DNA of 64,000 bases from Psychromonas sp. L1A2 (GTDB lineage: Bacteria > Pseudomonadota > Gammaproteobacteria > Enterobacterales > Psychromonadaceae), in NCBI RefSeq assembly GCF_009828855.1, contig NZ_WUAG01000001.1, positions 372,001 through 436,000 of the forward strand, in the 5' to 3' direction. Position numbers and translations under genes: made by a program. Below, in pieces: positions 27,104-50,671 of the stretch. The first letter of the stretch is position 1, and each line of letters begins with the position of its first letter. Under the pieces are notes generated by a model. The model was not told where the DNA came from and did no database searches. It saw nothing but the letters and a program-made list of their open reading frames with translations.

Positions 27104-28162
27104 ATGGCTGCTGATACAGATAAAGAATTTCAAGAATGGGTTTTACCTGATTTTGAAAACAATGACTCTCAAGATCAAGGTGAAATTGATTTATTTGGTC
27201 GGCCTGCTAGTTGGTATCACAAACAACAACCAGAAAATATCGAATCAAATGAAGAAGCGCCAAAACCGTTAACATTAGAAGATATAGAGTCAATTCGAGC
27301 ATCTGCCTATGAAGATGGCTTTAATGAAGGTAAAGAATCTGGTTTTGTGAAAGGGATAGAAGATGGAACCCTACAAGGTTTGAGTGAAGGCCATGAACAA
27401 GGACTTGCTCAAGGTGTAGAACAAGGTTTAATGGAAGGTAAAGTAAAAGTAGAGGCGCAAACGCTACATTGGCAGCAGCTTGTTTCTCGATTACATAATC
27501 CACTTGAAAAATTAGATGACAGTGTTGAGTTTCAATTAATTAAATTAGCGACAAATCTTGCTGAGCAAATAGCGAGATGTGAAGTGACTGTAAATCCTAA
27601 AATTATTCTACAAGCATTAAAACAAGGCGTAGAGGCATTACCTGTTAATGAACAGATCATTGTCATATCACTTAACCCAGACGATCTTATTTTTGTACAA
27701 AATGCTTTTTCTGAAGAAGAGTGTAAAAAGAGAGGTTGGGACTTACGTACCGAGCCTACTTTGTTACGTGGTGATTGTCAGATAAATACACAAGCTTCTA
27801 GTATCGATTACACCTTCTCAATGCGAATTGAACAAGTATTAAAAAACTTCCTTAAAGAAAATTATCAAAATACGCCTGAAGTTAGTAATGATGGTGATAT
27901 CAATAATGATCAACCACTTGATTATGAAATGAAAACAGAAGATGAGTTACAAGCGTTATTGGAAGCTGAAAAAGCTGCAAGTGATGAAAATATAGCTAAT
28001 AAAACAGAACCTTCTGAATCTGATTCGGCTAAGGCTGAAAATAGACTAAATAACCCTGAAGTAGACTCTTTAAAGTCAACACCTTCTGAGTTAAATCAAT
28101 CAGAAGAAAAACCGGATATTGATACAGGGCTTATTGCCGATACTGATACAGTGAAACGTTAA
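27104..28162 (+). CDS. fliH: Flagellar export apparatus regulator FliH, extended
   Basis: 352 residues, much longer than E. coli FliH (235). FliH holds the ATPase FliI at the export gate. Residues 72-112 contain a run of GxxxG steps ([28 protein letters not shown]), the hallmark helix of the family; the core domain runs to about 258. The last ~90 residues are an acidic, low-complexity tail absent from classical FliH. The tail includes DELQALL at 280-286. ATG at 27104 with AAGG nearby. One base separates it from fliI. Confidence 0.9.
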
Positions 28163-32337: not shown

Positions 32338-33360
32338 ATGGATTTATTATCTCAAGATGAAATTGACGCGCTATTGCATGGTGTTGACGACGTTGATGAG
32401 GAGATGATTGAAAATAATGAAATGAGTTCGGGCGATTCTCATGCGCATTTCGATTTTTCATCACAAGACCGTATCGTACGTGGACGTATGCCAACTTTAG
32501 AGTTGGTGAATGAACGTTTCGCTCGTCATTTACGGATTAGTTTATTTAATATGTTACGTCATACTGCTGAGGTTTCGATCAATGGCGTTCAAATGCTTAA
32601 ATTTGGAGAGTACGTCCATACTTTATTTGTTCCCACTAGTCTTAACATGGTACGTTTTCGCCCATTAAAAGGCACTGCGTTGATTACTATGGAAGCTCGC
32701 TTAGTTTTCATTCTTGTTGAGAATTTCTTTGGCGGCGATGGCCGTTATCACTCTAAAATAGAAGGTAGAGAATTCACGCCTACAGAGCGCCGTATTATTC
32801 AAATGTTATTAAAAATAGTCTTTGAAGATTACCATAATGCTTGGGCTCCAGTAATGGATGCTGAATTTGAGTATTTAGATTCTGAAGTAAATCCTGCAAT
32901 GGCTAACATTGTCAGTCCAACAGAAGTTATTGTAGTTAATTCTTTTCATATTGAACTTGATGGTGGTGGTGGTGATTTTCATATCGCAATGCCATATTCA
33001 ATGCTAGAACCTATTCGAGAGTTATTAGATGCAGGCGTTCAAAGCGATAAAGAGGATACAGATCAGCGTTGGTCTCAAGCGCTTGAAGACGAAATTATGG
33101 ATGTTGAAGTTGAAATTGAAGCTCGCTTAGTTGAAAAAGAAATCAAGCTACGAGATATGATGGACTTTAAAGCGGGTGATATCATCCCTATTGATCTACC
33201 TGATAGCTTATTAGTTTCTGTAGAGGGGTTACCTTCGTTTAGAGCAACACTAGGTAAAATCAGTGATAACTATGCATTAAAAATAACTGAAAAAATTAAA
33301 CGTCCTGAAATGCAAAAAACACAAATTCATTTAGAAGATTTAAAAGAAACAACCAAGTAG
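32338..33360 (+). CDS. fliM: Flagellar motor switch protein FliM
   Basis: 340-residue C-ring protein and receiver of the chemotaxis signal. The N-terminal CheY-P-binding peptide is plain: LLSQDEIDALLHGVDD (residues 3-18). The CheC-like middle domain contains the GGXG-type motif FFGGDGRYHSK and the C-terminal SPOA domain (about 255-335) pairs with FliN. Seventeen bases after fliL, ATG with AAGGGTTAAGC. Confidence 0.97.
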   Translation: MDLLSQDEIDALLHGVDDVDEEMIENNEMSSGDSHAHFDFSSQDRIVRGRMPTLELVNERFARHLRISLFNMLRHTAEVSINGVQMLKFGEYVHTLFVPTSLNMVRFRPLKGTALITMEARLVFILVENFFGGDGRYHSKIEGREFTPTERRIIQMLLKIVFEDYHNAWAPVMDAEFEYLDSEVNPAMANIVSPTEVIVVNSFHIELDGGGGDFHIAMPYSMLEPIRELLDAGVQSDKEDTDQRWSQALEDEIMDVEVEIEARLVEKEIKLRDMMDFKAGDIIPIDLPDSLLVSVEGLPSFRATLGKISDNYALKITEKIKRPEMQKTQIHLEDLKETTK

Positions 33361-42913: not shown

Positions 42914-43297
42914 TTGAATAAAAATATGAAAATATTAATTGTTGATGATTTCTCAACAATGAGAAGAATAATTAAGAACTTATTAAGGGATTTAGGCTTC
43001 ACTAATACATTTGAAGCTGATGATGGCCATACTGCTTTGCCACTATTAAAAAATGGCGACTTCGAATTTGTGGTCACTGACTGGAATATGCCGATAATGG
43101 AAGGGATTGATCTATTAAAAGAGATACGAAAAGATCCTAAATTAAAGCATTTGCCAGTATTAATGGTAACAGCTGAAGCAAAACGAGAGCAGATCATTGA
43201 AGCTGCTCAAGCTGGAGTTAACGGTTATATTATTAAGCCTTTTACCGCCGGTACATTGAAAGAAAAATTAGACAAAATATTTGAGCGTTTAGCTTAA
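42914..43297 (+). CDS. cheY: Chemotaxis response regulator CheY
   Basis: 127-residue single receiver domain that carries the signal to FliM. Acidic pair D11/D12, phosphorylation site D56 (VVTDWNMP), T86 and K108 are all in place. I take the TTG at 42914 as start because AAGGGA (42903-42908) lies about six bases before it; the ATG at 42926 is 18 bases away. The N-terminus [12 protein letters not shown] agrees with CheY of related bacteria. First gene of the chemotaxis cluster. Confidence 0.95.
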
Positions 43298-43312: not shown

Positions 43313-44074
43313 ATGGCTGATCAAGTTATGCCACACCTCTCACTTTCTCAAGCTAAAGCGCTAGTGGCTCATTTAGAAGCCGAGCAAATTAATGAAGCTA
43401 ATAAGATTGTAGAGAGCGTTGATTTTTCTGTATCAAAGGAACATCTTCTCTTTGGCCAAGTCGGTGAATTAACACGTGAATTGCATGAGGCTTTATTAAG
43501 CTTTAATAATGATACACGTTTGATGGATCTCGCTGGTCATGATTTACCCGATGCTAAAAATCGCTTAAATTATGTTATTGAAATGACAGACAAAGCTGCT
43601 AACACAACAATGGATGCTGTTGACCATTGCCTGCCTATTGCCGATAAATTAATCCATGATTTAGATAACGTAATGCCAAGCTGGGAAAGCTTGATGACGC
43701 GTAATTTAGACGTTGGTGAATTTAAAGTATTGTGCCATTCCATTGATGAGTTTTTAACTTACTCAAAAGGCAGTTCGGTGCAGTTACGCGACAAATTAAC
43801 TGAAATACTCATGGCTCAAGAGTTTCAAGATTTAACTGGGCAAATTATTAATAGAGTTATTTCTTTAGTGCAAGAGATTGAATCTAAACTAGTTGTGATA
43901 CTGACTGTGTGTAGTAAACAAACCGAATTAGATGCTTCTGTTGGGCTGCAAAAAGAGAAAAAAGAACCACAAAGTACTGTTGCAGAAGGACCGATTATAG
44001 ACGCAGAGTCCCGTTTAGATGTCGTTAATGGACAAGATGAAGTGGATGATTTGCTTTCGAGCTTAGGATTTTAA
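43313..44074 (+). CDS. cheZ: CheY-P phosphatase CheZ
   Basis: 253-residue helical phosphatase. Active-site helix AQEFQDLTGQIINRVISLV contains the catalytic Asp and Gln of the family. The last residues DEVDDLLSSLGF (242-253) are the classic CheY-binding tail, joined by a flexible linker. It starts 15 bases after cheY with AAGGAG. Confidence 0.96.
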   Translation: MADQVMPHLSLSQAKALVAHLEAEQINEANKIVESVDFSVSKEHLLFGQVGELTRELHEALLSFNNDTRLMDLAGHDLPDAKNRLNYVIEMTDKAANTTMDAVDHCLPIADKLIHDLDNVMPSWESLMTRNLDVGEFKVLCHSIDEFLTYSKGSSVQLRDKLTEILMAQEFQDLTGQIINRVISLVQEIESKLVVILTVCSKQTELDASVGLQKEKKEPQSTVAEGPIIDAESRLDVVNGQDEVDDLLSSLGF

Positions 44075-44086
44075 AGGGAACCTGGA

Positions 44087-46411
44087 ATGACATTTGAAAT
44101 AGATGATGAAATCTTGCAGGACTTCTTAGTCGAAGCGGGAGAAATTTTAGAATTATTATCCGAACAACTTGTAGAGTTAGAGAATAATCCTAATGATTCC
44201 GAATTACTAAATGCAATTTTTAGAGGCTTTCATACCGTTAAAGGCGGTGGAGGTTTTTTATCCCTAAATGAACTTGTTGAAACGTGTCATGGTGCAGAAA
44301 ATGTATTTGATGGATTGCGTCAAGGGGCTCGTCTCGTTGACTCTGAACTTATGGATACCATTTTAGCAACATTAGATATTATTAATGAACAATTTTCAGC
44401 AGTTCAAAATGGTGAGCAAGGTGTAAAAGCACCTGATCATATTTTAGATGCATTACATAGGTTGAGTAAACCTGCGGTTATAGATGAACCTGTTACCGAG
44501 CAACTTCCTGAACCTATCATTGAACAACCTCCAGAGCCTGTTGTTGAACCACAAGCTAAAACTATTGATGATATAGATGCATTTGAGTTTGATGCGTTAT
44601 TAGATGAGCTACATGCAAATTCAGATTCTCCTGCCAAACTTTCAGCTACTGAAAACGCTTCTACGGAAACAGAAAGTGATGAAATCACTGAAGATGAATT
44701 TGAATCGTTATTAGATGATTTACATGGTGCAGGAAAACATTCTGTGCCAGTAATGGAAAAAGAGACAGTTGCAGATAATGCAATCGCTAGTGATGAAATT
44801 AGTGAAGATGAATTTGAATCGCTATTAGATGACTTACATGGTGCTGGAAAGCATTCTTTATCTCCTGTGGGCGCAACGGCTGCTAGCAATGAAGTTGCTA
44901 GTGATGAAATAACTGATGACGAATTTGAAAGTTTGTTGGATGATCTTCATGGTAAAGGCATGCATAAGAATGACCTTTCTGAAGATAAAAAACCTTCAGA
45001 TGATATTACAGATGACGAATTTGAATCATTACTAGATGAATTACACGGCGTCGGAAAAGTTAGTGCAAAAGCTGCTACAGACAAAGTACCGAATTCAGTT
45101 TCCTCAGTTAGTACTGCAGAAGTGAAAAGTAATCAACCTACAAAAACTGCGTCGTCTCAAGCTGAGCCTGTTAAACAACATGCGAATCCAGTACAAAAGG
45201 CTGCTACGACTGCACCAGCAAAAACGACACCTAATAAAGTAAATCAAGCGGAGCAAAGTGTCAGAGTTGACACGAGTACGCTTGATGAAATTATGAACAT
45301 GGTCGGAGAGTTAGTTTTAGTACGTAATCGTTTAGTCAGTTTAGAGTCAACTTCAGAAAATGAAGAAATTTCTCGTGCAGTTGCTAATTTAGCGATTGTA
45401 ACAAGCGACTTGCAAGGCTCTGTTATGAAAACTCGCATGCAGCCTATTAAGAAAGTTTTTGGTAAGTTTCCTCGTGTAGTCAGGGATTTAGCTCGTCAGC
45501 TTGGTAAAGATATTCGTTTAGAATTGGTCGGTGAAGAAACAGATTTAGATAAAAACCTAGTGGAGGCCTTAGCTGACCCATTAGTGCATTTAGTCCGTAA
45601 TTCGGTAGATCATGGTATTGAAATGCCTGATATTCGAATGCAAGCTGGGAAAGAAACACAAGGGCGTGTTTTATTATCTGCAGCTCAAGAGGGAGACCAT
45701 ATTTTGTTAGTCATTGAAGATGATGGCGCAGGTATGGATGCAGAAAAATTAAAACAGATAGCGATCAATAAAGGCATCTTAGATCAAGATGGTGCAGATC
45801 GCATGACTGATACTGAAGCCTACTCATTAATTTTCGCTCCTGGTTTCTCAACTAAAGTTGAAATTTCTGATATATCTGGTCGTGGCGTTGGTATGGATGT
45901 TGTTAAAACTAGTATTACTAAGCTAAATGGTACCATCTCAATCGATTCTGCGATTGGTAAAGGAACTCGATTAGAAATTAAAGTACCGTTAACGTTAGCT
46001 ATTTTACCGACTTTAATGATAGTTGTTGCTAAGCAAACATTTGCATTACCACTAACCAATGTTAATGAGATATTCCATTTTGACTTAGCTAAAACCAATA
46101 TTGTTAATGGACAATTAACGGTGGTTATTCGTGACCATGCTATCCCATTATTTTATCTACGGGAGTGGCTAGCACCTAAATCGCCTTTATCTGATAAAGG
46201 TAAGGGTAAAGGGCACGTTGTTATTGTTCAGCTTGGTATGCAACAAGTCGGCTTTGTTGTTGATGGTTTACTTGGCCAAGAAGAAGTTGTTATTAAAGCA
46301 TTAGATAAATTACTTTCTGGTACACCTGGAATGGCAGGTGCGACTATCACAAGTGATGGTGGCATTGCTTTAATTTTAGATTTACCAAGCTTATTAAAAC
46401 ATTACGCATAA
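44087..46411 (+). CDS. cheA: Chemotaxis histidine kinase CheA with tandem acidic docking-like repeats
   Basis: 774 residues. P1 Hpt domain at about 1-105, with the phospho-histidine in FRGFHTVKGGGGFL. Where P2 is expected (about 160-325) there is no P2 fold that I recognise; instead five motifs of the form DEFESLLDDLHG occur, at about residues 161-177 (DAFEFDALLDELHA), 197-217, 235-255, 272-292 and 304-324. Then a linker to P3 dimerisation (RVDTSTLDEIMNMVGELVLVRNRL region), P4 kinase (LVRNSVDHGIE, DDGAGMD, GRGVGMDVV) and the P5 CheW-like domain to the end. All kinase boxes look intact. The repeats may hold CheY, CheB or ParP. Confidence 0.95.
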   Translation: MTFEIDDEILQDFLVEAGEILELLSEQLVELENNPNDSELLNAIFRGFHTVKGGGGFLSLNELVETCHGAENVFDGLRQGARLVDSELMDTILATLDIINEQFSAVQNGEQGVKAPDHILDALHRLSKPAVIDEPVTEQLPEPIIEQPPEPVVEPQAKTIDDIDAFEFDALLDELHANSDSPAKLSATENASTETESDEITEDEFESLLDDLHGAGKHSVPVMEKETVADNAIASDEISEDEFESLLDDLHGAGKHSLSPVGATAASNEVASDEITDDEFESLLDDLHGKGMHKNDLSEDKKPSDDITDDEFESLLDELHGVGKVSAKAATDKVPNSVSSVSTAEVKSNQPTKTASSQAEPVKQHANPVQKAATTAPAKTTPNKVNQAEQSVRVDTSTLDEIMNMVGELVLVRNRLVSLESTSENEEISRAVANLAIVTSDLQGSVMKTRMQPIKKVFGKFPRVVRDLARQLGKDIRLELVGEETDLDKNLVEALADPLVHLVRNSVDHGIEMPDIRMQAGKETQGRVLLSAAQEGDHILLVIEDDGAGMDAEKLKQIAINKGILDQDGADRMTDTEAYSLIFAPGFSTKVEISDISGRGVGMDVVKTSITKLNGTISIDSAIGKGTRLEIKVPLTLAILPTLMIVVAKQTFALPLTNVNEIFHFDLAKTNIVNGQLTVVIRDHAIPLFYLREWLAPKSPLSDKGKGKGHVVIVQLGMQQVGFVVDGLLGQEEVVIKALDKLLSGTPGMAGATITSDGGIALILDLPSLLKHYA
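44567..45058 (+). repeat. Protein-coding repeats in cheA linker
   Basis: Five imperfect repeats, spaced about 32-38 codons apart; four encode S-D-(E/D)-I-(T/S)-(E/D)-D-E-F-E-S-L-L-D-(D/E)-L-H-G and the first, more diverged, encodes DAFEFDALLDELHA. Codon choice differs between repeats, so they are old or kept by selection on protein rather than a fresh DNA duplication. Confidence 0.9.
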
Positions 46412-46421
46412 AGGAAAGTAG

Positions 46422-47543
46422 ATGACGATTAAAGTCTTAGTGGTTGATGATTCGAATTTTTTTCGTCGTCGAGTTAGTGAAATAATCAATGCATCACCTT
46501 ACTTAGAGGTAATTGCTACAGCAAATAATGGTAAAGAAGCCATTGATATGGTGGTCAAACATAAACCTGATGTGATTACGATGGATGTTGAAATGCCAGT
46601 AATGGATGGCATTACGGCGGTTCAAAAGATAATGGATCTCCTGCCAACACCTATTTTAATGTTTTCATCATTAACTCATCAAGGTGCCAGCGCAACGTTA
46701 GATGCGTTAGATGCTGGAGCATGTGACTTTTTACCTAAGAAGTTTGAAGATATTGCTCGTGACAAACAAGAAGCTATCACTTTATTACAACAACGTATTC
46801 AAATGATCGCTAGACGACGCGTACAGAGAGTACCAGAAAAAAAATCTGGATTAGCTAAACCTGTCGCTAATGTTGCAACAACAATAAAGCCTACTTTATC
46901 GAGATTACCGCCAAAAAATGACGGTCATGAAGTGGCGGTTAAATCTACGAATCATCGTAATAAAGCCTCTGGAAAGTCTTATAATGTACTGGCAATTGGG
47001 ACTTCAACAGGTGGCCCCGTTGCATTACAAAAAATATTAACTGCATTACCTCAAAACTTTAAATTACCTATCGTATTAGTGCAGCATATGCCTGGTACCT
47101 TCACTAAAGCTTTTTCTGAACGTCTAAACAGCAATTGTAAGATCACTGTTAAAGAAGCAGAAACAGGCGATATATTAAAACCTGGTTGTGCTTATTTAGC
47201 GCCTGGTGGTAAACAAATGTTAATTGCTGCTAATGGCCAAATAAAAATACATGAAGGTAATGAAGCCTTGAACTATAAACCAAGCGTTGATATTACTTTT
47301 GCATCACTTGCTAAATCTTATACCAATAAAGTCTTGGCTATTATATTAACAGGAATGGGGGCTGATGGCCGTGATGGTGCTCGTTTACTAAAAAGTAAAG
47401 GCTCTGAAATTTGGGCTCAAGATGAAGCAAGTTGTGTCGTTTATGGTATGCCGCAAGCAGTCACCAAAGCTGGAATTGCGACCGAATCAATCGCTCTTGA
47501 TCAAGTTGCTAAACGCATCTTGGTGGAATTAAAGCATGAGTAA
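46422..47543 (+). CDS. cheB: Chemotaxis methylesterase/deamidase CheB
   Basis: 373 residues: receiver domain (1-120) with phospho-acceptor D55 in [13 protein letters not shown], a linker of about 60 residues, and the methylesterase domain with catalytic S195 (GTSTGGP), H222 (VQHMP) and the Asp in [11 protein letters not shown]. It removes methyl groups from receptors. ATG at 46422 with AAAGGAAAG; overlaps motC by eight bases. Confidence 0.96.
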
Positions 47544-48288: not shown

Positions 48289-49253
48289 TGCCAATTTATA
48301 ATCGTCGTCATGCTCATAAGCCACATAATAACCATGTTCATCGTTGGACTGTGTCTTATGCTGATTATATGACCTTGATGTTTGCGTTGTTTGTGGTGCT
48401 TTATGCTGTGTCACTAAATAATGAAGAAAAATACCAAGAAGTGATTGAAGTCATTCAAAGCGCTAGCCATTTTGTACGAGCCAATAATAGTGGTTCAGAT
48501 GCAAAAGGTATATTAACTAAACGTAGCAATGATATTAAAGACGAGACAGGGCCTGCATTAATAAGTGATGGAGAGAGCCATAACTTGGGGTATGTTAGTG
48601 AATTAGAAAGTGAAAAGTTATCAGACCCAGATCAAAGCTACACCGGAAAGTCATTAGAAGAGATACAATTATCTTTACAATCTGCATTGCAGCCCGAATT
48701 AGAAACAGGCGCTTTTAGTGTTGATTTAGATGGTGATTGGTTGACGATTAAAATGAGTGGACCTTTATTATTTGCTGGTGAGAGCCATACTTTATTAAAT
48801 GGCGCCAAGCATCAAATAGAGCAAATCGCTGCAGTTTTAAAACCAGTCAACAATATGCTCCGGTTACGCGGTTATACTGATGTAGATACGGTTGCTAATG
48901 AAATATACAAGTCAAATTGGGAGCTCTCTGCATTACGGGCTATTAGCGTATTACATGCTTTTAATAAACTTGGCATTACTGGCGAGCGAATGGTTATAGA
49001 AGGTTATGGAAAGTTTCAACCTATACTAAATAGTAATGGCAAAGAAGATAAATTAAAAAGCCGACGAGTTGTTATTGCTATCTCTAAATTTGCAGTGTTC
49101 AAAGCTCAACAATCTAATGAGAATTCAAGTAGCATAAAACCAATAAAAAAAGAAACAACGGACGTACCGCGTACGCCAAAACCTGATAGTGATGAAATAC
49201 GCGAAATATATCACCCAGATGGGCGAATCATCATTACAACAAGGCAGGAGTGA
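48288..49253 (+). CDS. motD: Flagellar stator subunit, MotB/PomB family (MotD type)
   Basis: 321 residues: a basic His-rich N-terminus, one transmembrane helix (about 21-42) with the ion-binding aspartate D26 in SYADYMTLMFALF, a plug/linker region and a C-terminal OmpA-like peptidoglycan-binding domain (about 160-270; MLRLRGYTDVDTV, NWELSALRAISVLHAF, GYGKFQPI). It shares one base with motC (TAATG) and overlaps the region before parC, so the three are coupled. Confidence 0.92.
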   Translation: MPIYNRRHAHKPHNNHVHRWTVSYADYMTLMFALFVVLYAVSLNNEEKYQEVIEVIQSASHFVRANNSGSDAKGILTKRSNDIKDETGPALISDGESHNLGYVSELESEKLSDPDQSYTGKSLEEIQLSLQSALQPELETGAFSVDLDGDWLTIKMSGPLLFAGESHTLLNGAKHQIEQIAAVLKPVNNMLRLRGYTDVDTVANEIYKSNWELSALRAISVLHAFNKLGITGERMVIEGYGKFQPILNSNGKEDKLKSRRVVIAISKFAVFKAQQSNENSSSIKPIKKETTDVPRTPKPDSDEIREIYHPDGRIIITTRQE

Positions 49254-49255
49254 CG

Positions 49256-50029
49256 GTGAAAATTTGGACTATTTCAAATCAGAAGGGTGGTGTTGGAAAA
49301 ACCACAACTGTAATTTCAATGGCGGGTCTTTTAGTCGATCGAGGTTTTCGTGTTTTATTGATTGATACAGATCCTCATGCCTCTTTAACCAGTTACTTAC
49401 AGTACGATTCAGACCAGTTGCCTGTTAGTTTATACGATTTGTTTCAAGATCCTGCAACAACTAAAGCGGAATTAGATCAAGTTATACTACCTACGGAAAT
49501 TGCTAATTTATCATTGATCCCCGCTTCTATGTCTTTAGCAACATTAGATAGAGTATTAGGAAATCAAGAAGGCATGGGGCTTTTTTTACATAAGCAGCTA
49601 AAATTAGTAAAAGACGATTATGATTTTGTACTTATTGACTGTCCACCGGTACTAGGTGTAATGATGGTTAATGCATTAGCAGCTTGCGAACGAATTTTAA
49701 TTCCAGTACAAACAGAGTTCTTAGCTTCTAAAGGCTTACAAAGAATGGTGCAAACGCTTGGCATTATGCAGCATTCTAGAGGTGATGATTTTAATTATTG
49801 CATTATCCCTACTATGTTTGATAAAAGGACAAGAGCTTCAATTAATACTTTAGAAGAGTTAAAAAATACTTATAAAGGTAAAGTTTGGAATGGCGTTATT
49901 CCTATCGATACTAAATTTAGGGATGCAAGCTTGGCTCATTTACCTATCTCTCTTTATATTAAGAGTTCTAGAGGTTCCTTTGCTTATGAAACATTGTTAA
50001 ATTATTTGCTACAAACTGAGCACAATTAA
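49256..50029 (+). CDS. parC: ParA-like ATPase ParC, chemotaxis array positioning
   Basis: 257-residue ParA/Soj family ATPase, Walker A KGGVGKTT at residues 10-17, LIDTDPHASLTSYL and LIDCPPVLGVM following. In Vibrio the homologous gene in the che cluster, ParC, brings chemotaxis arrays to the cell pole and helps share them at division. The start is the GTG at 49256, five bases after AGGAG; a GTG at 49250 lies inside that site. No ParB partner or parS site is present, which fits this role rather than chromosome partition. Confidence 0.9.
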   Translation: MKIWTISNQKGGVGKTTTVISMAGLLVDRGFRVLLIDTDPHASLTSYLQYDSDQLPVSLYDLFQDPATTKAELDQVILPTEIANLSLIPASMSLATLDRVLGNQEGMGLFLHKQLKLVKDDYDFVLIDCPPVLGVMMVNALAACERILIPVQTEFLASKGLQRMVQTLGIMQHSRGDDFNYCIIPTMFDKRTRASINTLEELKNTYKGKVWNGVIPIDTKFRDASLAHLPISLYIKSSRGSFAYETLLNYLLQTEHN

Positions 50030-50671
50030 ATGAAAAATAATAACAACGACGCAATGAAAAACTATTTTGACTCAATGCTGCGTAATGATGATAAATCGAA
50101 TGAAGAGTCACCTGAATTTGCAGAGCCTAGTGAATTAAATGAACAGTTAGTATTTTCTAGCCCGACAATTAATATTCAAAAAGAGCCTGAAATAGAGTCA
50201 GTTGAAAAAGATGATGAATGGGAAAATTTGGTTGTAGCAGATCAGTTTCAAGTATTGTTCTTTGAACTCAACCATATTACCTTTGCCATACCATTAACTG
50301 ATTTGGGGGGGATTTATCATTTAACAGATTCACTTAATTTTTTAATGGGTAAACCGGCATGGTTTCGTGGTGTAATGAGCCACAATGAGCGGTTATATAA
50401 TATTGTAGATACTTCATCATGGTTGCAACTTGGTCGTAATGCTACCGATCTTAATTATACTCATTTTATTTTACTAGGTGATACTGCTTGGGGATTGTCT
50501 TGTGAAAAGTTGTTAGGTACTGAAAACCTCAACAAAGATCAAATTAGGTGGCGTGATAAGAAAGGATCTCGCCCATGGCTAGCGGGTATGGTTAAGCAAA
50601 AGATGTGTGCTTTGATCCATGCAAAAGAACTCGTGAAGCTATTAGATCAAGGAATGGATATTCGCGGCTAA
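50030..50671 (+). CDS. parP: CheW-domain protein ParP
   Basis: 213 residues with an acidic, Asn-rich N-terminus (1-62) and one CheW-like domain (about 63-205; FQVLFFELNHITFAIPLTDLGGIY, PAWFRGVMSHNERLYNIVDT described by region). It begins at the base after the parC stop. In Vibrio, ParP links ParC to CheA arrays; the domain pattern and position here agree. A small FDSML motif at residues 13-17 resembles the CheA repeat core, but weakly. Confidence 0.87.
   Translation: MKNNNNDAMKNYFDSMLRNDDKSNEESPEFAEPSELNEQLVFSSPTINIQKEPEIESVEKDDEWENLVVADQFQVLFFELNHITFAIPLTDLGGIYHLTDSLNFLMGKPAWFRGVMSHNERLYNIVDTSSWLQLGRNATDLNYTHFILLGDTAWGLSCEKLLGTENLNKDQIRWRDKKGSRPWLAGMVKQKMCALIHAKELVKLLDQGMDIRG

Follow-up and report, generated by a model that had tools for sequence, protein, structure and literature searches.

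A FliM-like peptide array in the P1-P3 linker of gammaproteobacterial CheA as a candidate substitute for the P2 domain

The P2 domain of Escherichia coli CheA binds both CheY and CheB, and the N-terminal peptide of FliM binds CheY. For Vibrio CheY3, a passage has FliM and CheZ using the same face (PMC3774744). Passages of a 2023 survey state that more than half of the CheA proteins lack P2, the gap being an extended unstructured region, that P2 may be dispensable, that E. coli P2 is dispensable when the Hpt domain is overexpressed, and that Pfam models miss most P2 domains (PMC10782961). The Vibrio CheA is described, in part of one paper, as having P2 and then a region named LID (PMC7534058); LID is placed between P2 and P3 and said to occur only with ParC and ParP in sections of that paper and of another (PMC7534058, PMC5706961). 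A CheY-binding domain is ascribed to the CheA of Pseudomonas putida in a section of PMC11978298. Docking of CheY by CheA is known, and the sequences described here suggest, as a new element, candidate peptides in place of a domain. Six representative repeat strings had no match in the open-access literature searched; titles and abstract openings on CheA P2, repeats, linear motifs and disorder do not describe the array, and the word "motif" is absent from the 2023 survey (PMC10782961).

The window, that is, the whole stretch of 64,000 nucleotides of Psychromonas sp. L1A2 DNA that was analysed, holds a cluster of fliM, fliN, flhF, a MinD-like ATPase gene, fliA, cheY, cheZ, cheA, cheB, mot-like genes, parC-like and parP-like genes and cheW. 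Several of these names are assumed from the character of the sequences and from gene order; likewise, the names ParC for 49250..50029 and ParP for 50030..50671 are assumed from synteny. Between 42914 and 46411, cheY, cheZ and cheA share one reading frame, with stop codons and short spacers between them. The features are as follows.

32350..32382, plus strand: FliM N-terminal motif SQDEIDALLHG (strict-motif scan)
42914..43297, plus strand: CheY, the proposed ligand of the repeats (open reading frame; nearest solved structures are the CheY homologs 3to5 and 4hns)
44036..44071, plus strand: CheZ C-terminal motif DEVDDLLSSLGF (strict-motif scan; PF04344 CheZ)
44087..46411, plus strand: CheA, 774 aa (open reading frame, Pfam, AlphaFold2)
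CheA domains by Pfam: Hpt/P1, residues 8-97; H-kinase_dim/P3, 389-449; HATPase/P4, 497-636; CheW-like/P5, 643-772
CheA P1-P3 linker, residues about 128-392: carries the five peptide copies
44564..44632, plus strand: repeat 1 (weak), IDDIDAFEFDALLDELHANSDSP, 64% identical to the reference copy; helix 165-177
44675..44743, plus strand: repeat 2, the reference copy, SDEITEDEFESLLDDLHGAGKHS; helix 202-213
44789..44857, plus strand: repeat 3, SDEISEDEFESLLDDLHGAGKHS, 91% DNA identity to repeat 2; helix 240-251
44900..44968, plus strand: repeat 4, SDEITDDEFESLLDDLHGKGMHK, in-register copy; helix 277-288
44996..45064, plus strand: repeat 5, SDDITDDEFESLLDELHGVGKVS, in-register copy; helix 309-320
46422..47543, plus strand: CheB, a possible second ligand (open reading frame; CheB match in 13 of 13 genomes)
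49250..50029, plus strand: ParC-like ParA-family ATPase (Pfam AAA_31; genome search)
50030..50671, plus strand: ParP-like protein with a CheW-like domain (Pfam CheW 74-203; profile A1)

The repeat unit of CheA is 69 nt long and occurs five times in register, the copies being 64-91% identical to the reference copy and starting 111, 114, 111 and 96 nt apart, with copies 2 and 3 the closest pair in DNA. The four strong copies start at residues 199, 237, 274 and 306 and the weak copy lies at about residues 163-180, in agreement with the original prediction of five tandem motifs, the weak one first, at about 161, 197, 235, 272 and 304. Uncorrected pS between the strong copies, taken pairwise, is 0.32-0.97 (mean 0.70) and mean pN is 0.11, a ratio of 0.16; in the pairs other than 2 and 3, pS is 0.60-0.97 and the peptide is conserved. 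Because synonymous differences are many and replacements are few, the copies are kept as peptides. The window genome (4.34 Mb, two contigs) gave a single CheA match, and the nearest named relatives among the matches listed are CheAs of Psychromonas (72-77% identity).

Motif scans of the window covered open reading frames 150 aa long or longer. Among these, the strict motif [DE][DE]hydrophobic[DE]xLL is confined to FliM (residue 7), CheZ (residue 242) and CheA (four times), the same three proteins that had been said to fit D-E-hydrophobic-acidic-x-L-L. Four occurrences in the 284-residue CheA linker compare with a mean of 0.004 and a maximum of 1 in 20000 shuffles; a chance origin of the CheA motifs is ruled out by the shuffles together with the restriction to FliM, CheZ and CheA. 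The looser pattern [DE][DE]hydrophobic-x-x-LL adds only DELQALL of FliH (residues 280-286, 27941-27961), a related sequence that had also been pointed out beforehand.

The first 10 columns of 155 CheA repeats were made into a profile and run on 3238 open reading frames, the named CheA ORFs being set aside. Fifty-three of the 54 FliM ORFs came in the top 100 (AUC 0.994), compared with a maximum AUC of 0.982 and a mean of 0.82 for 60 column-shuffled profiles on FliM. By this measure, composition accounts for a good deal of the FliM signal, and order adds to it. AUCs for CheB, CheY, ParP, ParC and CheW were 0.61-0.75. When all 15 columns were used, FliM N-termini took the first 11 places among the non-CheA matches (further CheA pieces being labelled CheA), and the reverse search with a FliM profile ranked 64 of the 76 CheA ORFs among the first 100 of 3260 (AUC 0.983). 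The comparisons thus support a likeness of CheA repeats and FliM that is order-specific and reciprocal. The CheZ likeness (AUC 0.942) was within the column-shuffle range (maximum 0.982), so the view that the repeats mimic both FliM and CheZ stands for FliM and is weakened for CheZ. The CheA repeats have the acidic-E-hydrophobic-acidic-x-LL pattern of FliM/CheZ-type peptides, but at the place where FliM and CheZ of the loci have I/V and then D, they have F (154 of 155; L in one) and then E (125) or D (30); since CheA differs in this way, its ligand or the state of the ligand may differ from FliM's. A regular expression detected the FliM motif in 51 of the loci's 54 FliM ORFs; it missed a variant (L127), an ORF truncated where the fetched stretch ends (L179) and one whose start is extended (L182).

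No folded P2 is predicted in the linker that carries the repeats. Run on the complete CheA (54 rows), AlphaFold2 gave pLDDT mostly about 90 for P1 and mostly 70-87 for the catalytic part; the linker was predicted as five isolated helices only and no domain, the main ten-residue blocks of the helices having pLDDT 57-75 and the stretches between them less than 50. An earlier run (14 rows; CheY, CheZ and the CheA N-terminus as one chain; pTM 0.26) agrees on the linker fold. Structure prediction of the linker had been proposed as a check, and the outcome named beforehand as refuting, a P2 folded with confidence, was not obtained. Neither PF07194 nor PF09078 had a Pfam match in the window CheA, and both are absent from the 25 commonest of the 58 Pfam families matching the linkers of 72 relatives. 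Among 187 whole genomes, PF09078 was found in one (G138), which is outside the 77 with this CheA, and PF07194 in none; the E. coli control CheA matched PF09078 at 8.2e-17. The original prediction that a classical P2 is missing is therefore borne out by Pfam and by AlphaFold2.

Pfam models alone are insufficient for the absence of P2, so three P2-like profiles were built from other CheA types and tested on 31 other-type CheAs, a non-random set of best-scoring dimerisation-domain loci and one PF09078 locus, one member being a fragment without the linker. The profiles match 16, 6 and 2 of these, that is, 24 of 31. The second profile recognises E. coli P2 (2.9e-20), and the first profile is similar to this one (86% probability); the third is weaker, and because its likeness to the other P2 profiles is weak (51%), its two members are less sure, the other 22 of the 24 assignments resting on the first two profiles. 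CheA-type repeats occur in none of the 31. Applied to the linkers of the present type, 73 in all (the window linker, 69 others with repeats and three that lack them), the same profiles find no domain; the lowest i-E values are 0.0055 and 0.28, both for the window linker, and the rest are at least 0.53. These two values come from p2b (best domain, over repeat 5) and p2a, respectively; an unfiltered search with p2b gave the window linker a weak sequence E of 0.0023, and the five weak p2b domain matches fall on the five repeats, at profile positions 3-31. These matches may mean that the repeats resemble the helix with which P2 begins, or may reflect acidic-helix composition alone. Few evolutionary events may lie behind the mutual exclusion of P2 and repeats. 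A PDB search with the CheA linker gave three weak matches, to centrin-2 (best E 0.16).

Other linker arrays were also seen. The CheA linkers of L208 (G199), L190 (G241) and L189 (G237), which are of another type and without match to the P2-like profiles, carry a different, DD[AS]FGFFDDAPG-like motif in 3-5 copies, and L194 and L192 have a single such copy after a P2-like domain.

CheA of the present type (E <=1e-100) was found in 77 of 187 gammaproteobacterial genomes, the window genome included. All 76 other loci were fetched, and four with CheA ORFs shorter than 560 aa were dropped (in two of them, further CheA pieces that bear repeats lie in a separate ORF), which left 72 CheA ORFs. The search for the motif in CheA of other gammaproteobacteria, another of the checks proposed at the outset, found I[TS][DE][DE]EF[ED][AS]LLDxLHG in 69 of the 72, with 1-4 copies each; 9, 36, 22 and 2 loci have one, two, three and four copies, respectively, to give 155 repeats in total by one regular expression. 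The three CheAs without repeats (L184-L186) are another CheA type, and their fetched stretches have CheB nearby and neither CheZ nor FliM. A looser pattern was counted in 119 listed relatives of at least 650 aa, drawn from 120 protein-database relatives listed of 8000 scored: four copies were found in 62, three in 31, five in 24 and two in 2. Judged from these sequences, the five copies in the window CheA are the upper end of a common feature. Spacing between copies varies from 26 to 73 residues, start to start (84 pairs). The CheA of L171 (G154) has three closely similar repeats with LLNQRD in place of LLDxLHG, each preceded by LPEGVDPDG, and represents a lineage with an altered C-terminal half of the motif.

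The partner of the repeats was considered in relation to ParC and ParP, CheB, CheZ and CheY. One explanation offered earlier was that the repeats bind ParP; they would then be the LID, by which ParP and ParC hold the array at the pole. Downstream, the window has the parC-like and parP-like genes, the Vibrio LID is described between P2 and P3 and only with ParC/ParP in parts of PMC7534058 and PMC5706961, and the linker outside the repeats looks low-complexity by eye. However, six genomes (G007, G154, G137, G018, G020 and G021; completeness 96-100%) have the CheA repeats, degenerate in G020, and gave no ParC-type or ParP match in genome searches, which would miss very divergent homologues. Their best ParC match is at most 138.1 bits, the level of another ParA protein, against at least 184.9 for ParC-type matches elsewhere, and their best score with the ParP profile is no higher than 49.1 bits, compared with 202.5 and 233.4 for the two positive controls. 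All six have cheY nearby and the FliM motif. Because the repeats persist in these genomes, ParP is not a necessary partner, and a ParP-only reading is weakened; a second role in ParP binding may remain. In addition, identity with the LID leaves the FliM likeness unexplained, and we regard it as unlikely. As for CheZ, neither a profile run on the neighbourhood of cheY nor a single-sequence search of the genome with the window CheZ found it in G137 and G018, a result which is not certain since the latter search is insensitive and missed CheZ in G009, G020 and G133, whose loci hold it by profile. At these two loci (L177 of G137 and L178 of G018), cheY is the nearest gene upstream of cheA among the genes sought, and cheA keeps one repeat.

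CheB has a match in all 13 genomes examined, so its presence does not help to distinguish it from CheY as the ligand. The repeats could even serve to dock CheB specifically, which would leave CheY with P1 only, and textbook E. coli P2 does bind CheB as well as CheY; but the nearest sequence relatives of the repeats, the FliM peptides, bind CheY, and the L184-L186 CheAs are without repeats although CheB is nearby, which makes an exclusive CheB role very doubtful. Another possibility is that the repeats bind some other partner or each other, as a SHOCT-type oligomerisation or array-packing motif, or that they dock to the catalytic domains of CheA itself. Similarity to SHOCT (PF09851) appears at E <=0.1 in 60 of 72 linkers; the window, with 26.2 bits, is just below the curated cut-off of 27, the homolog P0109, with 31.8, is above it, and some listed relatives carry PF09851 in precomputed domains. 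The match, however, spans only some 16 residues, the spacers between copies vary as given above, and AlphaFold2 confidence in the repeat helices, read from pLDDT values that do not bear on packing, is modest; we consider binding to another partner, to each other or to the catalytic domains quite improbable. Because the repeats, CheY and the FliM motif persist without ParC/ParP found, and in two genomes without CheZ found, the partner that needs the fewest assumptions is CheY, possibly together with CheB. Repeat divergence did not follow divergence of the CheY face when corrected for CheA P3-P5 (partial rho 0.10, p 0.54, 42 loci).

The present CheAs probably belong to class F6, as synteny and the description in part of PMC7184735 indicate. 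The same part describes F6 CheY passed to F7 CheA, with changes that include R92K, Q94N and V103A facing P2 and others facing P1 (PMC7184735). The window CheY has R91, Q93 and V102, by eye at the same places. As far as that description goes, the F6-to-F7 changes of CheY fit an F6 CheA presenting something other than P2.

On balance, we think it probable that the P1-P3 linker is a flexible substitute for P2 which docks CheY, and CheB perhaps, on the FliM-binding face. Direct support comes from the repeats themselves, the conservation of their peptides, their order-specific FliM likeness, the lack of a predicted P2 and their presence where no ParC/ParP was found; what we infer from these is the binding and the face bound, that phosphorylation brings release, and that CheB may take part. 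The disordered CheA tether would bear several short helix-forming peptides doing the job of P2, and each repeat would dock CheY, perhaps also the CheB receiver domain, on the alpha4-beta5-alpha5 face, which in CheY is presumed to be used by FliM and CheZ as well. Such a fly-casting linker, with several weak sites, would raise the local concentration of CheY beside phosphorylated P1; once the phosphate has been passed on, CheY-P would move from the CheA peptides to FliM and CheZ. With Phe in place of Ile/Val, the repeats may favour unphosphorylated CheY. On the other side, texts that give the CheAs of Pseudomonas putida and Vibrio a P2 count against the linker being a P2 substitute, as far as the sections concerned can be compared by description rather than by residue limits. 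Furthermore, since E. coli P2 is dispensable under Hpt overexpression, a substitute for P2 is not strictly required. A wider proposal, put forward tentatively and itself rather doubtful, is that some CheA classes replaced P2 by peptide arrays whose copy number tunes CheY capture: the F6-type peptide would imitate the motor hook, its Phe would prefer unphosphorylated CheY, CheY-P would be handed to FliM by competition for one face, and another CheA type would use the DDxFGFFDDAPG-like array.

The array suggests a putative different wiring from kinase to motor in many gammaproteobacteria. If the repeats dock CheY, kinase and motor would hold it with one kind of peptide in much of the Gammaproteobacteria, Pseudomonas included, since this CheA is present in 77 of the 187 genomes sampled. 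Competition, multivalent buffering and hand-off among kinase, motor and phosphatase would then be directly testable, and the number of repeats would be an evolvable knob for signalling gain.

Compared with known systems, the repeats share with the LID of Vibrio CheA the P1-P3 location in CheA of ParC/ParP systems; the LID is described as restricted to species with ParC/ParP and the repeats are not, as the six genomes without a ParC-type or ParP match indicate, the two being compared by description rather than by residue limits. With P2 (PF07194, PF09078) they share the position between P1 and P3 and a presumed role in docking CheY and CheB, but P2 is one folded domain, whereas the window CheA has several short peptides on a predicted flexible chain. 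The E. coli P2 stretch LKAGEVDLLEEELGHL is loosely similar by eye to a CheA repeat; it was rejected as a distant relative, the repeat profile ranking it sixth in its own protein with a score below zero. E. coli P2 residues 171, 178 and 181 presumably touch CheY, three labels that had no match in the literature searched. The CheZ peptide, DEVDDLLSSLGF, resembles the repeat, DEFESLLDDLHG, and shares the third leucine at LLxxL; it is, however, single and C-terminal, and its likeness did not go beyond composition in the shuffle test. The FliM peptide is the best match outside CheA and has [IL][ST]x[DE]E-hydrophobic-[DE][AS]LL in the same order as the CheA repeats, but it occurs once, near the N-terminus, whereas the CheA repeats are internal, are present in 1-5 copies and carry DxLHG in addition.
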